Shown: positions 12,590 to 54,236 of the stretch, piece by piece
How positions within the stretch are numbered: the first letter of the stretch is position 1
How the letters are laid out: every line of letters starts with the position of its first letter
Virus record (IMG/VR): IMGVR_UViG_3300004369_000597
Location: 1-54,620 of that record
Reading direction: 5' to 3' (one strand)
Length of the DNA stretch: 54,620 bases
DNA from: a virus
Made by a program: the position numbers and the translations under genes
The notes under the pieces: generated by a model
What the model was told of the DNA's origin: nothing
Database searches by the model: none
Seen by the model: only the letters and a program-made list of their open reading frames with translations

Positions 12590-14185
12590 TTATTCTGGCC
12601 TATATTGTAGTGTCAAAAATATTTGTCTACCACCAGCTCCATAGCCAGGGATAATTTCAATTTCTTTATCTAGTATATCTCTAAACGTAACAGAAAGCAA
12701 ATAGTTGTTGCCCACTGACTTTTGCACACTTAAGTCAAATGAATTAACATTGTCTAATTCTTCAGTATCGTAAGGACTTTGCTTACGATCAAACATACCC
12801 TGATATGTAAGTTTTGCGGTGTAATCTTTTATAATATATGTACCCGATATAACAAACATGTACTTTGCAACACGTGGTTGTTCGGTGTCTGTCCAACCAA
12901 GATGTGTGTGAATCCACGCATTAGGGCTTAGTGTAATCATGTCTGAGTAACGAAAACCCTGCGTGTTATACTTACCTATGTTTACGTATTGATTCTCGTT
13001 AAAATCGTAATCTATGCCTTCGCTAAAACGATAATGAAAGTAAGACAGTTTGTTCCAACCTATTTCGTACCCAATTGATTCTTCGGGTTCTAGTTTAGGA
13101 TTAGGATTAGTCCAAGCGTCACCTCTAAGTTGGTATAGATTTGGATTGCGAAATGACGTACCCAAATTAACGAACAAGCCGTTATTCTCATACCCCACTC
13201 TATATACAAATGCATCTTGTGTTACACGGGAACCAACTTCAAGTCCAAACAATGTTTTTAGTACACCATATATGGCGTAGTTGTCTTCTGTGTCACTATC
13301 GTATTCTTCTTGTTCTGCGGTTACACCAATGATCGCATCACCCATAGTTAAAACAAGATTTGTTCTGTAGTCTGCATACCATCTGTTGGCTTCACTAACC
13401 CAAAAGTTATCAGAGTCAGCAAAATAGTCAGCATCGTTCCAAGTATGGCCCACAGTCCAATTTTCGCTACGTACACTTACTGCCCCGCGTTGACCTTCTT
13501 GCAAGCAATCGTTAGTGTAATCGTAACTGCTGTTCCAGCATTGATCAAAGTCATATTCATAATCGTTAATCATTACGTTTGCAGTGTACGAACCAAAATC
13601 AATGTGTGCCCTTGCAGTTACATTTTTGTAATCGTCTTCTTCATTGTTATCTGTGCGTACACTATCATTAGTTGCAGAAAGGTACGTAAAGTTAAATAAA
13701 TTCTCTAACGAATGGCTAACAAATTGATGATCAGAACCTGCTCTAACTGTAGAACCGGGTTGGATATTGTCATTAATAAAAATAGTACCTGCCAAACTGC
13801 CTGATCCATAAAGGACCGAATTAGGTCCATGTACAATTTTTGCAGTTTCATTTCCTGTTGCTAAGTCGTGCCCAAAATCATACCAACCTGCGCCTGCATC
13901 GTTAGCAGGAACACCATTACGAAATACAGTAGTGTGAATAGGCTGAGTGCCTCGTTCACTGTATCCTGCAAATCCTCCAAACCCACCTGCTACTGTAGTT
14001 GCTGGCATTAAACTTTCTATCAGTGTAACGTCAGTTACTGGATCACTTGTTACGGTGTGTTCTGTTGAACCTGTAACAACAATTGTTTCGATTTCTTCTG
14101 CATGTACTTCATTAAGTAGAAATGCATAAAAAATCATTACGATTGCAAAACCTAATATTTCGATTTTGCCATTTTTAATACTCAT
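12590..14185 (-). CDS. TonB-dependent outer-membrane receptor (phage-borne)
   Basis: 531 residues. Order: signal peptide (about 1-29, hydrophobic GFAIVMIFYAFLL, cleavage after VHA); a TonB-box-like segment IETIVVTG; a plug domain (about 40-150) with the classical KIVHGPNSVLYGSGSLAGTI motif; then a beta-barrel of alternating aromatic strands (for example WNKLSYFHYRFSEGIDY, RNPNLYQLRG) ending LTLQYRPE. Such receptors import siderophores, vitamin B12 or glycans using TonB energy. The barrel of about 380 residues is short for the family (whole receptors usually 600-900 residues). The gene sits inside a phage operon: ATGA overlap with the gene upstream, 3 nt from uvsW. The C-terminus lacks the usual final Phe. 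Substrate unknown. Confidence 0.88.
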   Translation of the reverse strand: MSIKNGKIEILGFAIVMIFYAFLLNEVHAEEIETIVVTGSTEHTVTSDPVTDVTLIESLMPATTVAGGFGGFAGYSERGTQPIHTTVFRNGVPANDAGAGWYDFGHDLATGNETAKIVHGPNSVLYGSGSLAGTIFINDNIQPGSTVRAGSDHQFVSHSLENLFNFTYLSATNDSVRTDNNEEDDYKNVTARAHIDFGSYTANVMINDYEYDFDQCWNSSYDYTNDCLQEGQRGAVSVRSENWTVGHTWNDADYFADSDNFWVSEANRWYADYRTNLVLTMGDAIIGVTAEQEEYDSDTEDNYAIYGVLKTLFGLEVGSRVTQDAFVYRVGYENNGLFVNLGTSFRNPNLYQLRGDAWTNPNPKLEPEESIGYEIGWNKLSYFHYRFSEGIDYDFNENQYVNIGKYNTQGFRYSDMITLSPNAWIHTHLGWTDTEQPRVAKYMFVISGTYIIKDYTAKLTYQGMFDRKQSPYDTEELDNVNSFDLSVQKSVGNNYLLSVTFRDILDKEIEIIPGYGAGGRQIFLTLQYRPE

Positions 14186-16431: not shown

Positions 16432-16770
16432 TTAATCGGCCCGTGAACCCATATAAGCCCGAATACCATGATCCTGAAGGACCTTAGCATATGCCCGGGC
16501 ACCAGTTTCCTTGATGTCCATAGACTGGGTCATAGACCCGCCCGGGTTCCAAAGTTGAAGTGATTTAGTGTAAGACTTGCGAAATCCAATTTTCTGAAGG
16601 GCCTTGCCTACCTTGCTATTAGAACGCACCCCGTAAATATCGACCCAAGCAAATCCGCAGTACGGTGTTTCACCGTATTGTGCGATAAAGTCTGATTCTG
16701 CTTTGCGGGCCGCCTCAGTAGCTTCAATGTGCATGTCAATAATTTGTGTTTCAGTGATTGCAGTAGTCAT
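16432..16770 (-). CDS. Conserved hypothetical phage protein, 112 aa
   Basis: A small protein with a conserved-looking C-terminal half (SMTQSMDIKETGARAYAKVL) and a basic central segment. Similar proteins lie near AAA+ genes in other marine phages as far as I recall, but function is unknown. It has its own promoter (16802-16830) and a good ribosome-binding site (GGAG 6 nt before ATG). It ends just upstream of the AAA+ promoter. Confidence 0.7.
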   Translation of the reverse strand: MTTAITETQIIDMHIEATEAARKAESDFIAQYGETPYCGFAWVDIYGVRSNSKVGKALQKIGFRKSYTKSLQLWNPGGSMTQSMDIKETGARAYAKVLQDHGIRAYMGSRAD

Positions 16771-16801
16771 AATGATCTCCGTTTTCTCAGTCTATGTGTA
16801 C

Positions 16802-16830
16802 ATTATGAACCCAATCCAACCCAAAGTCAA
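16802..16830 (-). promoter_or_regulatory. Sigma70-type early promoter (TTGACT-17-CATAAT)
   Basis: Minus strand: AAAAAAGGCTTGACT with -35 at 16830-16825, 17 bp, CATAAT at 16807-16802. Belongs to the same promoter family as those at 16425, 41486, 43325 and 43684. It would drive the 112-aa gene. Confidence 0.75.
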
Positions 16831-16877
16831 GCCTTTTTTGCCACTTTTTTGGATATTTTTCAAGTTTTTTTGGATTC

Positions 16878-16923
16878 CTAATAAAATCAATAACTTACGA
16901 TTCTAATAGAATCAATGACTTAG
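16878..16923 (-). repeat. Imperfect direct repeat upstream of an early promoter
   Basis: Two related copies on the minus strand: AAGTCATTGATTCTATTAG and AAGTTATTGATTTTATTAG. A third copy of the core (TAAGTCATTGATT) lies at 43361-43377 upstream of another promoter of the same family. It fills most of the 164-bp gap between the 112-aa gene and the copper monooxygenase genes. An operator or UP-element role is possible but untested. Confidence 0.45.
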
Positions 16924-16934
16924 AAATGTTAGTA

Positions 16935-18200
16935 TTATTCTACATTCTTCCAAGTAAATGCACCGAAGAACATTTCGTCTTCAGACATCTGGCCCCACGG
17001 TACTTCTCTTGCGGGGTCTGGATTCTTTGGATTGTCTGTACTATTATCAAACGCACCTTCTACAAATAATCGAGTACCTGCAGGAATAAACTTAGGATCT
17101 TTCCATGTGTATGAAAGTTGCCAAGCATAGTCATACCTAGGAATGTCTATTAGTTCTTCCCTTGTACCGTCAGCATAGATTGCAGTAGCTCGCATACTCT
17201 TGCCACGGAAATGCATGTGTGGTAAGAAAGTGTGTAGTCTAATATCATTCTTTAGTGTAATCTCTGCTGTCTGTACAAAGTTAGGATCAAAGGGTGGAAT
17301 CGGCGTCCAAGTGTTAGGGAAGATACAGGCACAATCACCTGCCATTCTTTCTTCTGGTACTACGCCTTCATCGTGGAAGTATAGTCCGATTCTTGCTCTG
17401 TCAGTTCTTGCTGTACCATCAGGCGTATAGTGTAGTTGTAGATTCACGATTGAACCTGCTCGCAACAAACCACCTGTGTTCTCGTCATAGTAATCAGGAT
17501 CACCGCCAGGAACATATGCACTAATAGTAGCATAGTCCATATCGCCTTGTCCTTCGCCCTGTGCGCCTAACAAGTTACCGTTACGCTCACCTGGAATATT
17601 TACTGTGTTCAGCATGTGATGCATAACAGTAGGCTCGCTAGGCAAGAACTGTGATCCACGCAACCACTTGTCTTCCGTGAGACCAAGATCAACACTTGTG
17701 TATCTGTATGGTATCGCATTAGGACCCATTGTGCCAAATGCTGGAATCTCTTGTGGTGGTACTTCGATAATCATATCAGGCTCACCATGTACCCACTCTG
17801 AAGTAGAGTAAGTTGTTTCTGTCAGAGGATCAACATCTCCCTCAACAGGTGCGCCTGCGTCAATCCACTCTACAATAGTATCAATCTCTCTATTGCTTAG
17901 AGTTCTGTGATTGATAATTGTACCTGCGTACTTACGATCAATTTGACCTGGAGGCATACGCTTCTCAACGATAGCCTCTTTGATTGCAGGTGCAAAGCCT
18001 TGTAACATTTGATAGTTAGTCATTGCCCATGGAGCAATACCACCTTCTCTGTGACACGATTGGCATTGCTCTACAAAAATAGGCGCAACATCTCTCGCAT
18101 AGTCAATCTCATCTGCTTTTGCTGTAATAGCTACAGCACACAACAATGCTGTCCACACTGCTACTGTACTAAGCCAAAACATTTTCTTAATGCTATTCAT
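16935..18200 (-). CDS. Exported cytochrome c / copper type II (PHM-like) monooxygenase, copy 2
   Basis: 421 residues: signal peptide (about 1-29), a c-type heme domain with CQSCH at 46-50 and a likely axial Met in RMPPG (M82), then a two-part copper type II ascorbate-dependent monooxygenase fold. All ligand positions of peptidylglycine hydroxylating monooxygenase can be matched: H194-H195 and H257 for CuH; H328 and H330 (PHMH) and M410 for CuM. The protein should act in the periplasm and hydroxylate an unknown substrate, with the heme feeding electrons (inference). Its start overlaps the stop of the paralogue by one base (TAATG). Such fusions are familiar from marine gammaproteobacteria, not phages. 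Confidence 0.85.
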   Translation of the reverse strand: MNSIKKMFWLSTVAVWTALLCAVAITAKADEIDYARDVAPIFVEQCQSCHREGGIAPWAMTNYQMLQGFAPAIKEAIVEKRMPPGQIDRKYAGTIINHRTLSNREIDTIVEWIDAGAPVEGDVDPLTETTYSTSEWVHGEPDMIIEVPPQEIPAFGTMGPNAIPYRYTSVDLGLTEDKWLRGSQFLPSEPTVMHHMLNTVNIPGERNGNLLGAQGEGQGDMDYATISAYVPGGDPDYYDENTGGLLRAGSIVNLQLHYTPDGTARTDRARIGLYFHDEGVVPEERMAGDCACIFPNTWTPIPPFDPNFVQTAEITLKNDIRLHTFLPHMHFRGKSMRATAIYADGTREELIDIPRYDYAWQLSYTWKDPKFIPAGTRLFVEGAFDNSTDNPKNPDPAREVPWGQMSEDEMFFGAFTWKNVE

Positions 18201-19474
18201 TAGTCATCTCCCATAATACTTCTTTGTGCTTTCAATTGTTCAAACCCTTCATCATCCAAATGTGTAAATGCTAACCAAGCGTGAGTCATCTCATCGCCTG
18301 TTCTTGAACCACCCATTACCCACATATCAGGATCAGGGTTGTTGGGATTGTCAGCAGTGTTGTCATACCATTGCTTGAGAATAATAACCGCACCTGTTGG
18401 CAGTAATGGTGCTACTTCAGGCGAATACAAGTGGCTATGATGCCATGTTGCACTCCATTTAGAAATTTGACTTATTGCTTCTGTACGACCAGTTTCAGGA
18501 TAAAAGATTTCCAAACTTGCCGCATTCATACGCAAATGACCATGTGGTTGGAAGCTGTCCAGTCTAACAGGATGGTCGAAACTGTGAAACCCCTGGGTCA
18601 TCGCATATCCATTGGGTGGGATAGCTAAATCGTCCTGATTGCCAAGGCGATACAAACTCAAGTCTTGTTTGTATTTTAATTGTTTGCTTTCCTCTTCGGT
18701 GTACAACCAAAGACCAATCTCTACCACATTGTCTTTGATAACAGAACCTGGGGCCATTGCTCCAAGACCACCCGGGAACATGTGGATATCCCAACTGATT
18801 TGTGCGTTTGCTGGAAGTGTGCGACAAACTCCTTCTGGTACAATCTCTCCCCACTTTCCCATAGCGTACTCAGTGAGCATGCCTTCACGCCCTTCTGCGG
18901 TAATAATAGTAGAGTTGGCGTGATGTACTACTGACTTAGCTTCGCCACGTGGCTTTACTTGTACTGCTTTGATACATCTGTCTTCGCTGAGACCGCTTGG
19001 TACTAGATGCTTGTGCCATAGATCATTACCATTTGCAGGAATGTCGATGGCTACACTTGGAATGATTGCGTCTGGTGCACCGAAGTCGCCTTCAAAGTTC
19101 CACGCCTCTGGATCTCTCATCTTTGGCGCTTGTACTACTGTGTCAGGATCGCCGTAAATAGAACCGCTGTTGACCCATGCTACTACTGTGTCAATGTCTT
19201 CTTGTGCTAGTCGCCAATCACCCTGTAGGTCTTGTATGCCTATACCGTGATCGTAAGCATAAGGGGGCATCTCTCTACTTGCTACTTTCATAGCAATCAG
19301 TGGTGCCCATGGACGCACTTGCTCGTAAGTTTCAAAACTCATTGGACCGATACCACCTGCACGGTGACATACTACACAATTGTTGTTGATTATATCTGCT
19401 ACTTCGGATGTATATGTTTGAGAATATACAATAGCAGGGAAAAGTAATACTACAAACGCAAAAAGTTTTTTCAT
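18200..19474 (-). CDS. Exported cytochrome c / copper type II (PHM-like) monooxygenase, copy 1
   Basis: 424 residues: signal peptide (about 1-19, VYSQ cleavage region), heme c motif CVVCH at 33-37 with axial Met candidate M69, then the copper monooxygenase region with H184-H185, H231, H311-G-H313 and M386 in the places of the six copper ligands. The catalytic set is therefore complete. Overall identity to copy 2 is limited but the order of motifs is the same, so they are diverged paralogues that may form a heteromer or act on related substrates (inference). A TTAAATA box and a GAGGAAA ribosome-binding site precede the ATG. The truncated gene copy at 19552-19722 lies immediately upstream. Confidence 0.85.
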   Translation of the reverse strand: MKKLFAFVVLLFPAIVYSQTYTSEVADIINNNCVVCHRAGGIGPMSFETYEQVRPWAPLIAMKVASREMPPYAYDHGIGIQDLQGDWRLAQEDIDTVVAWVNSGSIYGDPDTVVQAPKMRDPEAWNFEGDFGAPDAIIPSVAIDIPANGNDLWHKHLVPSGLSEDRCIKAVQVKPRGEAKSVVHHANSTIITAEGREGMLTEYAMGKWGEIVPEGVCRTLPANAQISWDIHMFPGGLGAMAPGSVIKDNVVEIGLWLYTEEESKQLKYKQDLSLYRLGNQDDLAIPPNGYAMTQGFHSFDHPVRLDSFQPHGHLRMNAASLEIFYPETGRTEAISQISKWSATWHHSHLYSPEVAPLLPTGAVIILKQWYDNTADNPNNPDPDMWVMGGSRTGDEMTHAWLAFTHLDDEGFEQLKAQRSIMGDD

Positions 19475-19495
19475 TTTGTTTTCCTCTAGTACTAT

Positions 19496-19502
19496 TATTT
19501 AA
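19496..19502 (-). promoter_or_regulatory. Late-like box (TTAAATA) before the monooxygenase pair
   Basis: Minus-strand CACTTAAATAATAG lies about 21 nt upstream of ATG 19474. It resembles the late-type boxes elsewhere and would make the two monooxygenase genes a late operon. The surrounding gap (19475-19551) shows nothing else clear. Confidence 0.4.
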
Positions 19503-19551
19503 GTGCTAGATAACGGTTCAAAATGAAAAAACTACGGGTTGTTACAATTTA

Positions 19552-19722
19552 TTACAATTGGTTAAATCTATGTTCGGTAATGCCGGGTAAAGCGGCAATT
19601 TGTTTTTCAACAACGCCCTTTACCCTGACATCAGATTTAGATGAAATTAGTTCTGTTTCGTAATGACTGATAAAATCAGGAATTACTGAAAGATCATGTG
19701 TGATGCGTGTGTACCAATTCAT
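19552..19722 (-). pseudogene. Truncated paralogue of the 152-aa gene at 20870-21328
   Basis: A 56-codon frame beginning MNWYTRITHDLSVIPDF and ending RFNQL then TAA. It matches residues 1-56 of the 152-aa gene at 45 of 56 positions, while the DNA differs mostly at third codon positions. It stops exactly where the parent continues, so it looks like the remnant of a homologous gene cut at its 3' side, or a short functional paralogue. It starts in an ATGA overlap with the end of the radical SAM gene. Together with the full copy it flanks that gene. Confidence 0.8.
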
Positions 19723-20870
19723 AAATTATTCAAATTCAAGTACTTACGTATGATCTGATCAGCGAACGGCCAAAGTTCTGCAAATGTGCTGGGATGGTCT
19801 TCATCTAGCAATATGACTTCTTTGGTAAAATCTTTCATAACACGAATATTGTGGTACTCTAACCGATTACTAATTTCCTTTTTTAATGCTTCTAATGTTA
19901 TTGCTGTTTTTTGATTAATATAATCTTTATATTTGGTTTGGACTATATCTATTTGTTCTATTGCCTTTTCTTTTATTTCTTTTGGATAGTTCATTAAGTC
20001 AAGGTGGGGAGGATGATCTAAGGTAGATATAAAAGAAGTATTATTGTTTGGATTAGGATCAATACTATACAACCAATCAAACACATCTACTAATGTAAAT
20101 GCACTCATAAGTGTGTAAGTAAAATGTACGCCAATCGGAGATGAAATAGATTCCTTTAATTTTTTGTAATTGGATTCAGTTAAAGACCAAGTAGCGTTGC
20201 GTCTAACATATTCAAAATGATCTCCGATGTTTTCAAAACTAACAAGCCAAGCAACTCTGTGGTCTAGTTCAACTAACTTTTTATAAACAGGTAAATCTTC
20301 AATATTTTTGACAGACAAATTAGTAACAATACCTACTCTAGTTTGATCGTCTACTAATTCTAGCAAATCAATATTTTCTCGTAATAGTAAAGGTTCACCA
20401 CCTAACATTTGAATATCATGTAATCGGGTAGTGTTGTCTTTAATATGCTGTAAAACTTCGTCTTGCCATTGAGTTTCAGAAACTTTAATATCTATACCTT
20501 TCCAAGATGCGTATGCACTACTCCATTCAGGATTGCAATAATTACATCTTAACTGACAAGTATTGTGCCATCTTATGTCTACTGATTTGGGTACAAACTT
20601 ATCTTCTTGTAGTTCATCATCAATTTCGTCATACAAATCTTTAAGGCTTTTGCCAGTGCGTTGATACTGGTCATGACAACTGGTGCAGTAATCAGAATAA
20701 CCTTTAGTAAGCATGTCCTCTCTAAGTTTTGCTAAAGGACCTGCTTTTAATAATTCTTGTAATGAGTTTTTATTAAGATTGCCAAGTGAGTTGCCACCAC
20801 AGCATACTCTTAAGTCACCGTCTGGATTTACGAATAAGCCTTCCCAAGGCGCTCGGCATTTAAATTCCAT
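19719..20870 (-). CDS. Radical SAM protein with N-terminal SPASM/Twitch region
   Basis: 383 residues from ATG 20870, which overlaps the upstream stop as TAATG; a longer frame to 20933 lacks support. N-terminal auxiliary cysteines are C5, C23, C24, C62 and C65, then the radical SAM CxxxCxxC at C105, C109, C112 (CQLRCNYC), then MLGGEPLLL. The cysteine layout is nearly the same as in the first module of the 603-aa protein at 6249-8060. It would generate a 5'-deoxyadenosyl radical to modify an unknown peptide or small molecule. It is flanked by full and truncated copies of another gene, which suggests insertion. Confidence 0.85.
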   Translation of the reverse strand: MEFKCRAPWEGLFVNPDGDLRVCCGGNSLGNLNKNSLQELLKAGPLAKLREDMLTKGYSDYCTSCHDQYQRTGKSLKDLYDEIDDELQEDKFVPKSVDIRWHNTCQLRCNYCNPEWSSAYASWKGIDIKVSETQWQDEVLQHIKDNTTRLHDIQMLGGEPLLLRENIDLLELVDDQTRVGIVTNLSVKNIEDLPVYKKLVELDHRVAWLVSFENIGDHFEYVRRNATWSLTESNYKKLKESISSPIGVHFTYTLMSAFTLVDVFDWLYSIDPNPNNNTSFISTLDHPPHLDLMNYPKEIKEKAIEQIDIVQTKYKDYINQKTAITLEALKKEISNRLEYHNIRVMKDFTKEVILLDEDHPSTFAELWPFADQIIRKYLNLNNL

Positions 20871-21328
20871 TACGATACCGTGACATCTTCCATGCCAGCA
20901 GTACGTAATCGAACAATGTGACCTAGTTGCCATTGTTTAGCATCGATACCTTTCATTATACCAAGATATCGATTACGTAACAATGCAACTTCGTTGATTA
21001 AGTATTCAAAGTCAATAACTTCTTCTTCACCGTCTACATATTTTTCTGCATCACGGCTAGTTAATGCTCTGTTGTAGGCTTCCAAATATTTTTGGAAGTG
21101 TTTTCTACGAATTTTTCTTAGTTGGATATTAAGATAGTTGAGCACCGCTTCAATCTCTTGTAATTGATTGAAACGATGCTCAGTTACTCCTGGAAGTGCT
21201 GATATTTGTTTTTCAACAATACCATATACTCTAACGTCATTTTTTGCAGAGGTTAACTCGTTTTCATAATGAGCAATAAAGTCAGGTATTACTGCAAGAT
21301 TGTGTGTGATTCTTGTATACCAGTTCAT
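20870..21328 (-). CDS. Conserved phage protein downstream of UvsX, 152 aa
   Basis: Helical protein starting MNWYTRITHNLAVIPDF, with a basic coiled-coil-like middle (NIQLRKIRRKHFQKYLEAYN) and a C-terminal helix. I recall it as a conserved small protein of marine T4-like phages found next to uvsX; no known function. A second, truncated copy of its N-terminus is at 19552-19722. It begins 3 nt after the 83-aa gene and ends in a TAATG overlap with the radical SAM gene. Confidence 0.75.
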   Translation of the reverse strand: MNWYTRITHNLAVIPDFIAHYENELTSAKNDVRVYGIVEKQISALPGVTEHRFNQLQEIEAVLNYLNIQLRKIRRKHFQKYLEAYNRALTSRDAEKYVDGEEEVIDFEYLINEVALLRNRYLGIMKGIDAKQWQLGHIVRLRTAGMEDVTVS

Positions 21329-35126: not shown

Positions 35127-36257
35127 TTAAAATACACTACTATTTAGTCGTTGTTTTATAAAAAATCGCTCCACACAGTCAGCAATATAAACTACTTCAT
35201 TATCGTTAAGTTCAGGATAGATGGGAATACTTAATACAGACTTTGATAATACATGACCTGCACTTAAAATATCAGGCTTTTTAACACATCGGTCACTTAC
35301 ACCCAAATCTGATAAGACATAATCATAATGAATTTTAACATCAATATTTGAATGATCACTTAGATGAAGGTATAGTTCATCACGTATGTTTGGATCTACT
35401 CGTAACACAAACTTTTGATCCGCATGACGTTCACATCCTGCACTAAAACATGATATTTGTTCTAATTGTTCAAAACGTTCAAGGTAATACTGTCTGATTT
35501 TCTTTCTGCGTGATTGCCAATAATCAATATATTTTGTTCTTACTAAAATTTGGGCGCAATCTTGCTCACTCATTTTACTATTTGTACCTGTTTCATAGTG
35601 TCCAGGTTTGCCGTTGTCTCTATATTTAATTGCAAAATCGTATAGTTCTTTTTCATTAGTGACAATGGCGCCGCCATTACCTGATGACGGTAGATTTTTT
35701 GTAGGATCAAATGAGATAGCCATGCCTATACCAACATCACCGTCTGCTACTAACCAATGTTGTGCTCCGTCGATAATAGCAGGGAATTCAAATCGATCTT
35801 TAGGTATAGGACGTCCATACAAGCCTACATAACATTCTAATTTAGGATTTTCTGTATCTGTGTTTTGAACCATAATACCATCAGAGTCAACATCACACAG
35901 TTCTACGTTTAGTCCTGCATTAAAAAACGCATTTAATGTTGCAGGATAAGTTAAGTTTGGAACTCTAATTGTTTTATATGCTTCTTTGTCGTATACCCAC
36001 AATGCGTAAGGATCATTTTCAGGCATAGAACTTACTTCATAGGCGGCTATGATTTCTAATGCTTGTGTACCGCTATGACACAACACTGCATATTGTGTTT
36101 TTGTTTTTTGTTTTAACCATTCTTGGAATTCTTCTGCGAATGGGCCGTCGTTCCAGCAACCTGAAACTAAGGCTTTTTCAGTCGCATCCAGCAGTTGAGT
36201 TTTAATCTGCTGAGTTTGTCTTTTTAATCCAAAATGGGGAATTCGATAACCAATCAT
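35127..36257 (-). CDS. DegT/DnrJ/EryC1/StrS-type sugar aminotransferase
   Basis: 376 residues. PLP-enzyme fold with the N-terminal YAVLCHSGTQALEI substrate/phosphate segment, an acidic residue before the cofactor (IIDGAQHW), and the internal aldimine Lys in SFDPTKNLPSSGNGGAIV. These enzymes transaminate nucleotide-linked keto-sugars. It overlaps the epimerase gene by 56 bp, so both probably act on one nucleotide sugar. Phage glycan decoration of host or virion is a reasonable role (inference). Confidence 0.85.
   Translation of the reverse strand: MIGYRIPHFGLKRQTQQIKTQLLDATEKALVSGCWNDGPFAEEFQEWLKQKTKTQYAVLCHSGTQALEIIAAYEVSSMPENDPYALWVYDKEAYKTIRVPNLTYPATLNAFFNAGLNVELCDVDSDGIMVQNTDTENPKLECYVGLYGRPIPKDRFEFPAIIDGAQHWLVADGDVGIGMAISFDPTKNLPSSGNGGAIVTNEKELYDFAIKYRDNGKPGHYETGTNSKMSEQDCAQILVRTKYIDYWQSRRKKIRQYYLERFEQLEQISCFSAGCERHADQKFVLRVDPNIRDELYLHLSDHSNIDVKIHYDYVLSDLGVSDRCVKKPDILSAGHVLSKSVLSIPIYPELNDNEVVYIADCVERFFIKQRLNSSVF
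35141..35147 (-). promoter_or_regulatory. Late-like box (CTAAATA) for the holin gene
   Basis: Minus-strand CGACTAAATAGTAG, about 31 nt before ATG 35109 and inside the 3' end of the aminotransferase gene. AAAGGAG precedes the ATG. Confidence 0.4.
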
Positions 36258-37197
36258 AATATATTTTAAAACCTTCTTCTACGTCTACCTTGGGGTCGAA
36301 TTTAAAATCTTTTCTTGCCGCATCGATATTCAATGCTCCCCTACTTGGAAAATCTTTGTCTTTTGATTTTACTGTAATCTTGCCTTTACCTACAATATTT
36401 ACAGCAAGTTTAGCCGCTTCATATAATGAAACACTATGAGACTTAGTAATGTTGTACGTTTTATTTGCGGCTTTAGAACTAAACGTTGCGGCGGCAATAC
36501 CATCTGCGGCATCTTGTACATACGTAAAATCTAATGTTTCACTCTTGCCGTTAACTGAAAGGGTGCCGCCTTTCATAGCAGTAATTAAGAATTTAGAAAT
36601 AACTCTGTCTTCAACATCTAAAGGACCGTATACAGCACTTGGACGAATAATAGTGTGTTCCATACCGCATTGTCGGGTATAATCTCTGACTAACCATTCT
36701 CCTGCAAGTTTCATAATACCATATTGACCTTGAGGCTTGCAGTTATAATCTTCAGTAACTTGATCATCAAAATCACCATATACCATTGATGAACTGATGT
36801 ATGTAAAACGTTTTACATTGTGCTGTTTACTAAGTTCTAGTAAGTTGAGCAACCCTTCGCTCATTGCTCTACTTCCCGCCGTTGGATTGACGTTGACTAC
36901 TTTTTGCCTTGGAAAACTTGCTAAATGAATCACATGACTGAATTCATACTTTTCAAACAACGAAAGCATTTGTGGGCTTGCAATATCTATAGGATAAATA
37001 TTGATATCATTATTATTAGTTACTCTACTAGCAATAACTTTAAATCGTTCATTCATTAAATAATCGATTTCGTCCTGAGGCACCAAACCATATGTAGTTT
37101 TTGTATCAACAATAACGATGTTGTGGTCTTTCATAAGATTGACAACAACATTGTGTCCAATCAATCCCAAACCACCTGTAATTAATATATTACTCAA
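36202..37197 (-). CDS. NAD-dependent sugar epimerase/dehydratase
   Basis: 331 residues of the extended SDR type: N-terminal GGLGLIG nucleotide-binding loop at 8-14, an Asp after the second strand, YISSSMVYG, and the catalytic YGIMK (YxxxK). It is close to UDP-glucose epimerases and related dehydratases. The start is TTG at 37197, supported by GGAG 8 nt upstream, overlapping the 85-aa gene by 8 nt. With the aminotransferase it forms a nucleotide-sugar pair. Confidence 0.85.
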   Translation of the reverse strand: MSNILITGGLGLIGHNVVVNLMKDHNIVIVDTKTTYGLVPQDEIDYLMNERFKVIASRVTNNNDINIYPIDIASPQMLSLFEKYEFSHVIHLASFPRQKVVNVNPTAGSRAMSEGLLNLLELSKQHNVKRFTYISSSMVYGDFDDQVTEDYNCKPQGQYGIMKLAGEWLVRDYTRQCGMEHTIIRPSAVYGPLDVEDRVISKFLITAMKGGTLSVNGKSETLDFTYVQDAADGIAAATFSSKAANKTYNITKSHSVSLYEAAKLAVNIVGKGKITVKSKDKDFPSRGALNIDAARKDFKFDPKVDVEEGFKIYYDWLSNSPFWIKKTNSAD

Positions 37198-52676: not shown

Positions 52677-54236
52677 TTATGAAATAACACGTGTGCCGTA
52701 AAGTTTTTCAAATCTATCTGCGTCTGATCTATCATTAACCATGGGTTCTCCTCTGATGTTTAATGATGTGTTTAGAAGTATAGGGCAACCTGTTTCTTTG
52801 TACCATGCTTCTAACAATCGTCTAATACCTGTATCGTCTTTAGGAACAGTTTGCACTCTGCTTGTGCCATCAGCATGTATGATAGCAGGGAACTTTTTAG
52901 GATGTCTGCAAGGTGCAACTACTTGCATGTAGGGGGAAGTTTCCCAACCAGGTGGCATAACAAAATAATCGTCCACTAGTTCTTCTAAGATCATAGGAGC
53001 AAACGGTCTAAATTTTTGTCTCTTTTTAATTTCATTTACTTTGTCTTTTATCTTAGGACCTCTAGGGTCTGCTAGTAAACTTCTAGTACCTAATGCTCTG
53101 GGTCCAAACTCTGCTCTACCAGATGCGATACCTACAATCTTTTCTTTCTTTAGTGCTTTAACCATTGCATCTACTGGATACTCACCCGGTATGTTTGTGC
53201 CTAAAAAAGCATTTTTCCAATTTAATTTTTTACCATAATCTAATGCCGCGGCTCCTAATGAGTTACCAGCATCACCTGGATTAGGCATGATCCATATGTT
53301 CTTAAAGTATTCGCCTAGCAATCTGTTTGCTGAACAGTTAAGAGCAACACCACCACCGTATACTAAGTTTCTGCTCTTACCTTTGATCTTTGCTTTGTTC
53401 ATTACAATGTTAATTAATCTTTCAACGTATGCTTGTGATGATGCGGCAATATCAAAGTCGTCTGCACCTTTTAAGAATTCAGGATCAACTCCAATGTGCG
53501 AATTAGTTTTAAAGTCTAATTTTTCCGTGTGGGCTCCAAAGTAATCTTCAAGTTTTTTAGTATGCTTAGGTTCGCCGTATGCAGCCATACCCATTAAAAT
53601 ATATTCTTCATCTAGCGGACGCAAGCCAATTCTATGAGTCATTGCACTATAATACAAACCAATAGAGTTAGGATACTTTAAAGACCACAAACGTTTGTAT
53701 TTTGCATTACCTTTTTTGTCATAGTATGCATGCCATATAGTTGCACTATCTAACTCACCAATAGCATCAATAACAACTACAGTTGCTTCATCATAAGGTG
53801 ATGTTTGAAATCCAGCGGCCGCATGACATTTGTGATGCGTGTGAGTATTAAGGGGCAAAGCATCATAAAAAGGATGTTCAATGAGTAGTTTTGGGTCAAA
53901 CGAATCTAAAATCCACTCATGCAAATAGTCGTGAACTTTAGGTCCTATAAGGTCTTTTGCCATAAACGGACCCAATTTCTGACCTGCTCTAAATTGACGT
54001 ATGGCTTTGAGCCATGGTTTTTCATAATAATTAACAGTTAAATAATCATTCTTTTGATCACAGAAAGAAAGTGCTTCTTCTATAATATCGATACACAGGT
54101 CTTTGTCGTGTTTCTTTTTACTGTATCGTTCACTGTGCCCAGCAAAAAGTATTTCACCATTATCGTCAATTAATGTTACACCGGCGTCATGGAAACCACA
54201 ACTTAGCCCTAAATATTTTCTATTTTTTCTACTCAT
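52677..54236 (-). CDS. Carbamoyltransferase, NodU/CmcH/TobZ family
   Basis: 519 residues. N-terminal YLGLSCGFHDAGVTLI nucleotide/metal-binding fold, the metal-binding His cluster HTHHKCHAAAG, then VYGGGVALNCSANRLL, and the C-terminal block EFGPRALGTRSLLADPRG with LLNTSLNIRGEPMV. These enzymes move a carbamoyl group to a sugar or antibiotic hydroxyl. Carbamoyltransferases of this type are a recurrent accessory gene of T4-like cyanophages. It lies between a small basic 49-aa gene and the giant repeat protein, suggesting a joint glycan-modification role (inference). Confidence 0.93.
   Translation of the reverse strand: MSRKNRKYLGLSCGFHDAGVTLIDDNGEILFAGHSERYSKKKHDKDLCIDIIEEALSFCDQKNDYLTVNYYEKPWLKAIRQFRAGQKLGPFMAKDLIGPKVHDYLHEWILDSFDPKLLIEHPFYDALPLNTHTHHKCHAAAGFQTSPYDEATVVVIDAIGELDSATIWHAYYDKKGNAKYKRLWSLKYPNSIGLYYSAMTHRIGLRPLDEEYILMGMAAYGEPKHTKKLEDYFGAHTEKLDFKTNSHIGVDPEFLKGADDFDIAASSQAYVERLINIVMNKAKIKGKSRNLVYGGGVALNCSANRLLGEYFKNIWIMPNPGDAGNSLGAAALDYGKKLNWKNAFLGTNIPGEYPVDAMVKALKKEKIVGIASGRAEFGPRALGTRSLLADPRGPKIKDKVNEIKKRQKFRPFAPMILEELVDDYFVMPPGWETSPYMQVVAPCRHPKKFPAIIHADGTSRVQTVPKDDTGIRRLLEAWYKETGCPILLNTSLNIRGEPMVNDRSDADRFEKLYGTRVIS

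Follow-up and report, generated by a model that had tools for sequence, protein, structure and literature searches.

Two adjacent genes in the 54,620-nucleotide viral stretch analysed here (the window) raise the question of whether phages carry complete exported copper oxygenases, and to what end. Gene B, the first of the pair, lies at 18200..19474 and gene A, the second, at 16935..18200; both are on the minus strand, start with ATG, form complete ORFs of 424 and 421 amino acids, respectively, and overlap by 1 nt. Each is predicted to encode an exported cytochrome c fused to a dicopper monooxygenase with the fold of peptidylglycine hydroxylating monooxygenase (PHM) and dopamine beta-hydroxylase (DBH). 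The products are paralogues (26% identity, E 2e-31), and both begin with a hydrophobic N-terminus of the Sec signal-peptide type, as judged by eye. Their motifs follow one order, a single CxxCH, a downstream MPP methionine, and then HH, H, HxH and DEM, and map to C46xxCH50, H194 H195, H257, H328 H330 and M410 in A, and to C33xxCH37, H184 H185, H231, H311 H313 and M396 in B. ORFs and alignments thus bore out the preliminary description, which had reported two complete overlapping paralogues with signal-peptide-like N-termini, a CxxCH site and all six copper-ligand positions.

The haem and copper-ligand motif positions of A and B are invariant in the viral alignments. In a family alignment including members down to 25% identity, the CxxCH, the MPP methionine and the six copper ligands were invariant or nearly so, a degree of conservation far beyond chance. 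The succession of CxxCH and axial methionine that characterises class I c-type cytochromes was found as C33xxCH37 and M69, both invariant in the family alignment; the Pfam cytochrome c match to A and B was weak and under the cut-off.

The copper domain was recognised by fold. An AlphaFold model of B built from 20 viral sequences (mean pLDDT 68, the beta part being better predicted) was compared with known structures by Foldseek and VIA-align, and all top matches were PHM and DBH, with Z of 17-18 and an rmsd of ~3-4 Å across 240-258 residues, while unrelated proteins began at Z 9. The model of A was poor (pLDDT 51) and its details were left unused; even so, the 30 leading hits in Foldseek and the 26 leading rows in VIA were all PHM/DBH, at Z ~11. 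The two-domain beta-sandwich of PHM/DBH is therefore recovered for B at high score and for A from a low-confidence model. A profile of 19 diverse family members aligned its HH, H and HxH motifs position for position with the copper ligands of DBH (E 0.04, supportive only), and the sixth ligand, the DEM methionine, was equated by motif with M314 of PHM. The Pfam models Cu2_monooxygen (PF01082) and Cu2_monoox_C (PF03712), which the preliminary description had proposed as a check, matched neither A nor B, and PF03712 gave weak matches to two bacterial relatives only, so that the assignment of the copper domain rests on fold and ligand register. A failed Pfam gathering score is a database threshold and not a biochemical feature. 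No match was returned by phmmer searches of A and of B against PDB sequences, the relation surfacing by fold comparison only, and Pfam, NCBIfam, PHROGs and PADLOC gave neither protein a copper-domain or defence assignment. Fold and ligand alignment support the cytochrome c and dicopper architecture first proposed, and A and B would represent remote members of the PHM/DBH fold bearing two coppers and a haem c.

PHM and DBH, the animal copper type II ascorbate-dependent monooxygenases, have the same fold and the same six copper-ligand positions as A and B. The phage-borne proteins differ from them in having an extra N-terminal cytochrome c in place of reliance on ascorbate, and structural alignments with them give only 10-18% identity. 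Viral amoC and nirK are copper-enzyme auxiliary metabolic genes of marine viruses (PMC8115048). Like A and B they are carried by viruses and encode oxidative or copper enzymes of host type, but they belong to unrelated families, and A and B are a pair of exported oxygenases that are each self-contained and equipped with a haem. INPHARED, searched by protein and by DNA, held no match to A or B, that is, no cultured phage with the pair. A fold search of BFVD gave low-TM beta-sandwich matches only, with no PHM-like viral entry among the 50 matches listed, and the open-access literature searched (preprints and closed papers being outside its scope) described no phage-borne enzyme of the PHM/DBH-haem kind. 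Within these sources, and in PHROGs, the enzyme type is undescribed as phage cargo, as had been supposed.

Scans of IMG/VR returned 257 stretches matching B and 127 matching A. They correspond to 117 distinct contigs with A and/or B, many of them short, of which 82 carry both genes, 29 B only and 6 A only. The search of viral contig databases proposed beforehand thus did recover the pair, and showed it to be widespread and not peculiar to the window contig. The gene order is B then A on one strand without exception, with an overlap usually of 1-83 nt. Thirteen contigs have a gene for a small exported c-type cytochrome (Pfam Cytochrom_C, E 6e-8; at 11572-11958 in L015, and in 12 other loci) directly ahead of A, which lies between B and A in 11 of them and at a truncated edge in two, giving a three-gene operon in some phages. 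B also stands without A in about 20 contigs, so that A is dispensable in some cases, a point against the pair as an obligate unit. A small conserved lipoprotein-like ORF (~61-73 aa) was also observed downstream of B, often in A-less contigs, or downstream of A (L009 11268-11477, L067, L084 and others).

The pair occurs in at least 12 different phage gene settings, such as scaffold-gp23-B-A-tail tube-UvsW, Hsp20-like gene-B-A, and a position upstream of a 2,900-aa gene. A T4-type terminase was detected on 17 of the 46 whole records tested, and gp23, which encodes the major capsid protein of T4-type phages, on 11 of 33 virus records (E <= 0.001), being immediately upstream of B in several contigs. 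Some of these records measure 217-340 kb, and gp23 is present on the 340-kb one; two further gp23-positive genomes, G001 and G010, are MAGs and fall outside the 11/33 count. Terminase, gp23, scaffold, tail tube and UvsW are thus the hallmark genes of pair-bearing contigs, placing the pair on true virus genomes, as is asked of an auxiliary metabolic gene. The view that the pair is genuine phage cargo holds on dozens of independent contigs, where it stands beside phage genes. Phage-type B was also found on contigs binned to Marinimicrobia and Flavobacteriales MAGs (L150 and L165), from phyla unrelated to the proposed host group, which counts against the host assignment given below; these are probably phage contigs, since both MAGs contain gp23 genes.

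The viral genes appear to be maintained. The ligand motifs were kept in all 67 distinct viral B proteins and in essentially all of the 55 viral A proteins, one of which is without the DEM string, and dN/dS relative to the window copies was ~0.05-0.13, with dS near saturation. Both genes are accordingly intact and under purifying selection, in agreement with the earlier proposal that the activity is kept. Among 77 bacterial A-like proteins, 36-39 are without the H or HxH motif and 23 without DEM.

The nearest cellular relatives of A and B belong, as anticipated, to marine Gammaproteobacteria, labelled Pseudohongiella, OM182 or Pseudomonadales, and bacterial relatives of B are 64-85% identical to it. 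Pseudohongiella/OM182-like genomes carry multiple homologues each, and in the family-level genome set of G002 a strong A match was present in 99 of 137 genomes. On this sequence evidence, the phages probably infect Pseudohongiella/OM182-like Gammaproteobacteria. No named family was found for the bacterial cytochrome c-PHM-fold proteins, which have the same domain order and ligands as A and B. The bacterial A-type proteins are 500-650 aa long (77/77 collected), with homologues in frames of 570-660 aa, and an N-terminal AhpC-TSA/Redoxin match was present in both of those scanned with Pfam, in one case under the cut-off; phage A is without this domain. Bacterial B genes are arranged in tandem, frequently with a divergent A-like gene alongside, whereas all the B-A pairs observed were in loci of the phage type. 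Trees had been proposed beforehand to test for a separate viral clade of the pair: they support one for A, which forms a single purely viral clade (support 100/100), but not for B, whose main viral clade includes the bacterial branch L151 and is accompanied by a second small clade. Because viral B falls in two clades, one of them with a bacterial branch, B has been exchanged between cellular and viral genomes on more than one occasion. Of 78 bacterial loci (L151-L227), 51 have an uncharacterised exported-looking ORF of 317 aa without a Pfam match (e.g. L155 7117-8070) that shares the strand of B, at a median distance of 257 bp.

We propose, with a probability of about 0.6, that phages encode A and B as exported dicopper monooxygenases with the PHM/DBH fold and a linked cytochrome c, and that the two genes form a mobile auxiliary metabolic cassette. 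It would belong to marine phages, T4-like or larger, whose probable hosts are Pseudohongiella/OM182-like Gammaproteobacteria. A more specific evolutionary version falls a little short of even odds: a virus-specific haem-copper monooxygenase branch, streamlined when its redoxin domain was lost, would have spread through many marine phages in the form of an electron-transfer operon, B-(cytochrome c)-A, a complete extracytoplasmic oxygenase system with which the phage rewires the periplasm of infected cells through substrate oxidation or envelope modification.

Expression of the cassette may be late. The motif TATAAATA, the T4 late promoter consensus, precedes B in 19 of 58 viral loci, where dinucleotide shuffles give an expectation of 1.3; the loci are related, and their effective number is smaller. 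In the window, the candidate T4-type late-promoter-like motif upstream of B is CTTAAATA (19496..19503, minus strand), a partial match weaker than TATAAATA, followed ahead of B by a ribosome-binding-site-like AGAGG (19482-19486, minus strand). An exact-pattern scan of the viral contigs available, from which near-identical records may be missing, found no second copy of this promoter of B. The enrichment of the motif suggests that the pair would be transcribed late in infection from T4-type late promoters.

The products would then leave the cytoplasm by Sec export, and host machinery would attach the haem and load the copper in the periplasm. The fused haem may receive electrons from the periplasmic cytochrome c pool of the host, in some phages by way of the extra phage-encoded small cytochrome c, and hand them to the copper pair, a route that would replace the ascorbate of the animal enzymes. 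With O2, the copper sites would hydroxylate a small organic molecule at a C-H bond, in the space beyond the cytoplasm, and this step would open a carbon or energy source already attacked by the many paralogues of the host. If so, phages provide whole exported copper-haem oxygenases, beyond accessory subunits, and infection would change how a little-studied group of marine Gammaproteobacteria oxidises dissolved organic matter or the cell surface. A and B would also offer a natural, small and tractable haem-fed version of PHM/DBH chemistry, with the electron donor built in.

The boosting of such an outer oxidation step is the role that we favour, with envelope modification as its main rival. Some of the bacterial paralogues lie near genes for a GMC oxidoreductase, an MFS transporter and a beta-lactamase-fold hydrolase. 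The neighbourhoods examined did not reveal the substrate, on which bacterial neighbours say little because they differ from phage neighbours. Pseudohongiellaceae have been grouped with the sister family HTCC2089, and an oxygenase-rich lifestyle of hydrocarbon or algal-metabolite degradation was inferred, mainly for HTCC2089 (PMC8371827); this lifestyle, together with the homologues of the host group and the neighbourhoods of some of them, is the basis for favouring outer oxidation. Alternatively, the exported pair may oxidise a lipid, glycan or receptor in the envelope of the infected cell late in infection, thereby excluding further phages or easing lysis. The signal-peptide-like N-termini, the position behind the capsid gene together with the late-promoter motifs, the lipoprotein-like gene adjoining B in several A-less contigs, and the carriage of the genes in many different phage backgrounds all fit this alternative. 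We nonetheless regard it as unlikely, since host-type bacteria have multiple paralogues, some in metabolic-looking neighbourhoods, which favours small-molecule oxidation.

It is less probable still that the main function of the pair is to provide an outlet for electrons or to handle O2 or copper, burning periplasmic reductant with O2 or sequestering copper so that respiration and redox balance stay favourable, and yielding a hydroxylated product incidentally. The haem c fused to both A and B, the extra small cytochrome c of 13 contigs and the redoxin domain of bacterial A point in this direction. However, the strict conservation of both copper sites and of the surrounding residues suggests a specific substrate reaction, and the annotated neighbours included no recognisable gene for a copper chaperone.

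The preliminary description had also considered PHM-like action on peptides, for which the substrate anchors give no support. The residues R240, N316 and Y318 of PHM, whose positions were confirmed against 5wm0, bind the peptide carboxylate; their counterparts are L326, F412 and A414 in A, and Q309, H398 and W400 in B. Since these anchors are replaced in both proteins, peptide amidation is unlikely, and A and B are not PHM in the strict sense. Next to the pair, the window encodes a radical SAM/SPASM protein (19719-20933, minus strand), weakly similar to prokaryotic viperin models. Peptide alpha-hydroxylation or amidation as in animal PHM, perhaps on a peptide modified by this neighbour, would agree with the common fold and with the adjacency of the two loci in the window, but it is very improbable given the lost anchors and the presence of the radical SAM gene in a sister phage without the pair, the gene not being a conserved neighbour.

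Two sister contigs, L284 and L285, are 98% identical to the window on both sides and are without A and B. Alignment with them delimits a segment at ~16490..19733 (minus strand), wider than the two genes, that is absent or allelic in these near-identical phages and represents an insertion or replacement. The flanking 112-aa ORF (16432..16770, minus strand) has its 5' part within the replaced segment and its 3' end in common with L285. At the other side, a 152-aa gene that is intact at 20870-21328 recurs as a truncated copy (19552..19722, minus strand), which covers 56 codons from its 5' end, stops at an in-frame TAA and came in with the pair. The segment flanks resemble a third contig, L288: positions 19545-19741 are 91% identical to it, the full gene being present there, and are absent from L284 and L285. 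At the left breakpoint, ~9 bp (ACTTGAATT) are in common with the donor-like flank. Because sister contigs of 98% identity lack the pair, the natural reading of these alignments is that it was recently gained in the window lineage by recombination with a related phage already carrying it.

A join in the assembly near 16.9 or 19.5 kb had been named beforehand as a possible artefact; the breakpoints lie instead near 16.49 and 19.73 kb, and the left one shares only ~9 bp, less than an assembler working with usual k-mer sizes would need to make a join. That bacterial genes were joined to a phage contig by chimerism or host contamination is scarcely credible: the GC content (44% in A and B against 37% in the window), the near-identical sisters without the pair and the left junction, of which an exact-pattern scan of the same viral contigs found no second copy, would agree with it, but the same phage lies on both sides of the insert, the pair recurs alongside capsid, tail and terminase genes on many phage contigs that are independent of one another, and the phage A proteins, which have no redoxin domain, group in a clade of their own. 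A structural role for A and B in the capsid was rejected in view of the signal-peptide-like N-termini, the invariant metal ligands and the varied genome positions.

Other genes of the window were also inspected. A TonB-dependent receptor with a plug domain (12590-14185, minus strand; 531 aa), related to BtuB, is also present in the sister phages without A and B. Its relatives account for 110 stretches in IMG/VR, and in INPHARED they are limited to two Salmonella records, both with a weak resemblance to BtuB of the bacterial type. Genes for an aminotransferase, a nucleotide-sugar epimerase and a NolO-like carbamoyltransferase map to 35127-37197 and 52677-54236 (minus strand), and are suggestive of sugar modification.
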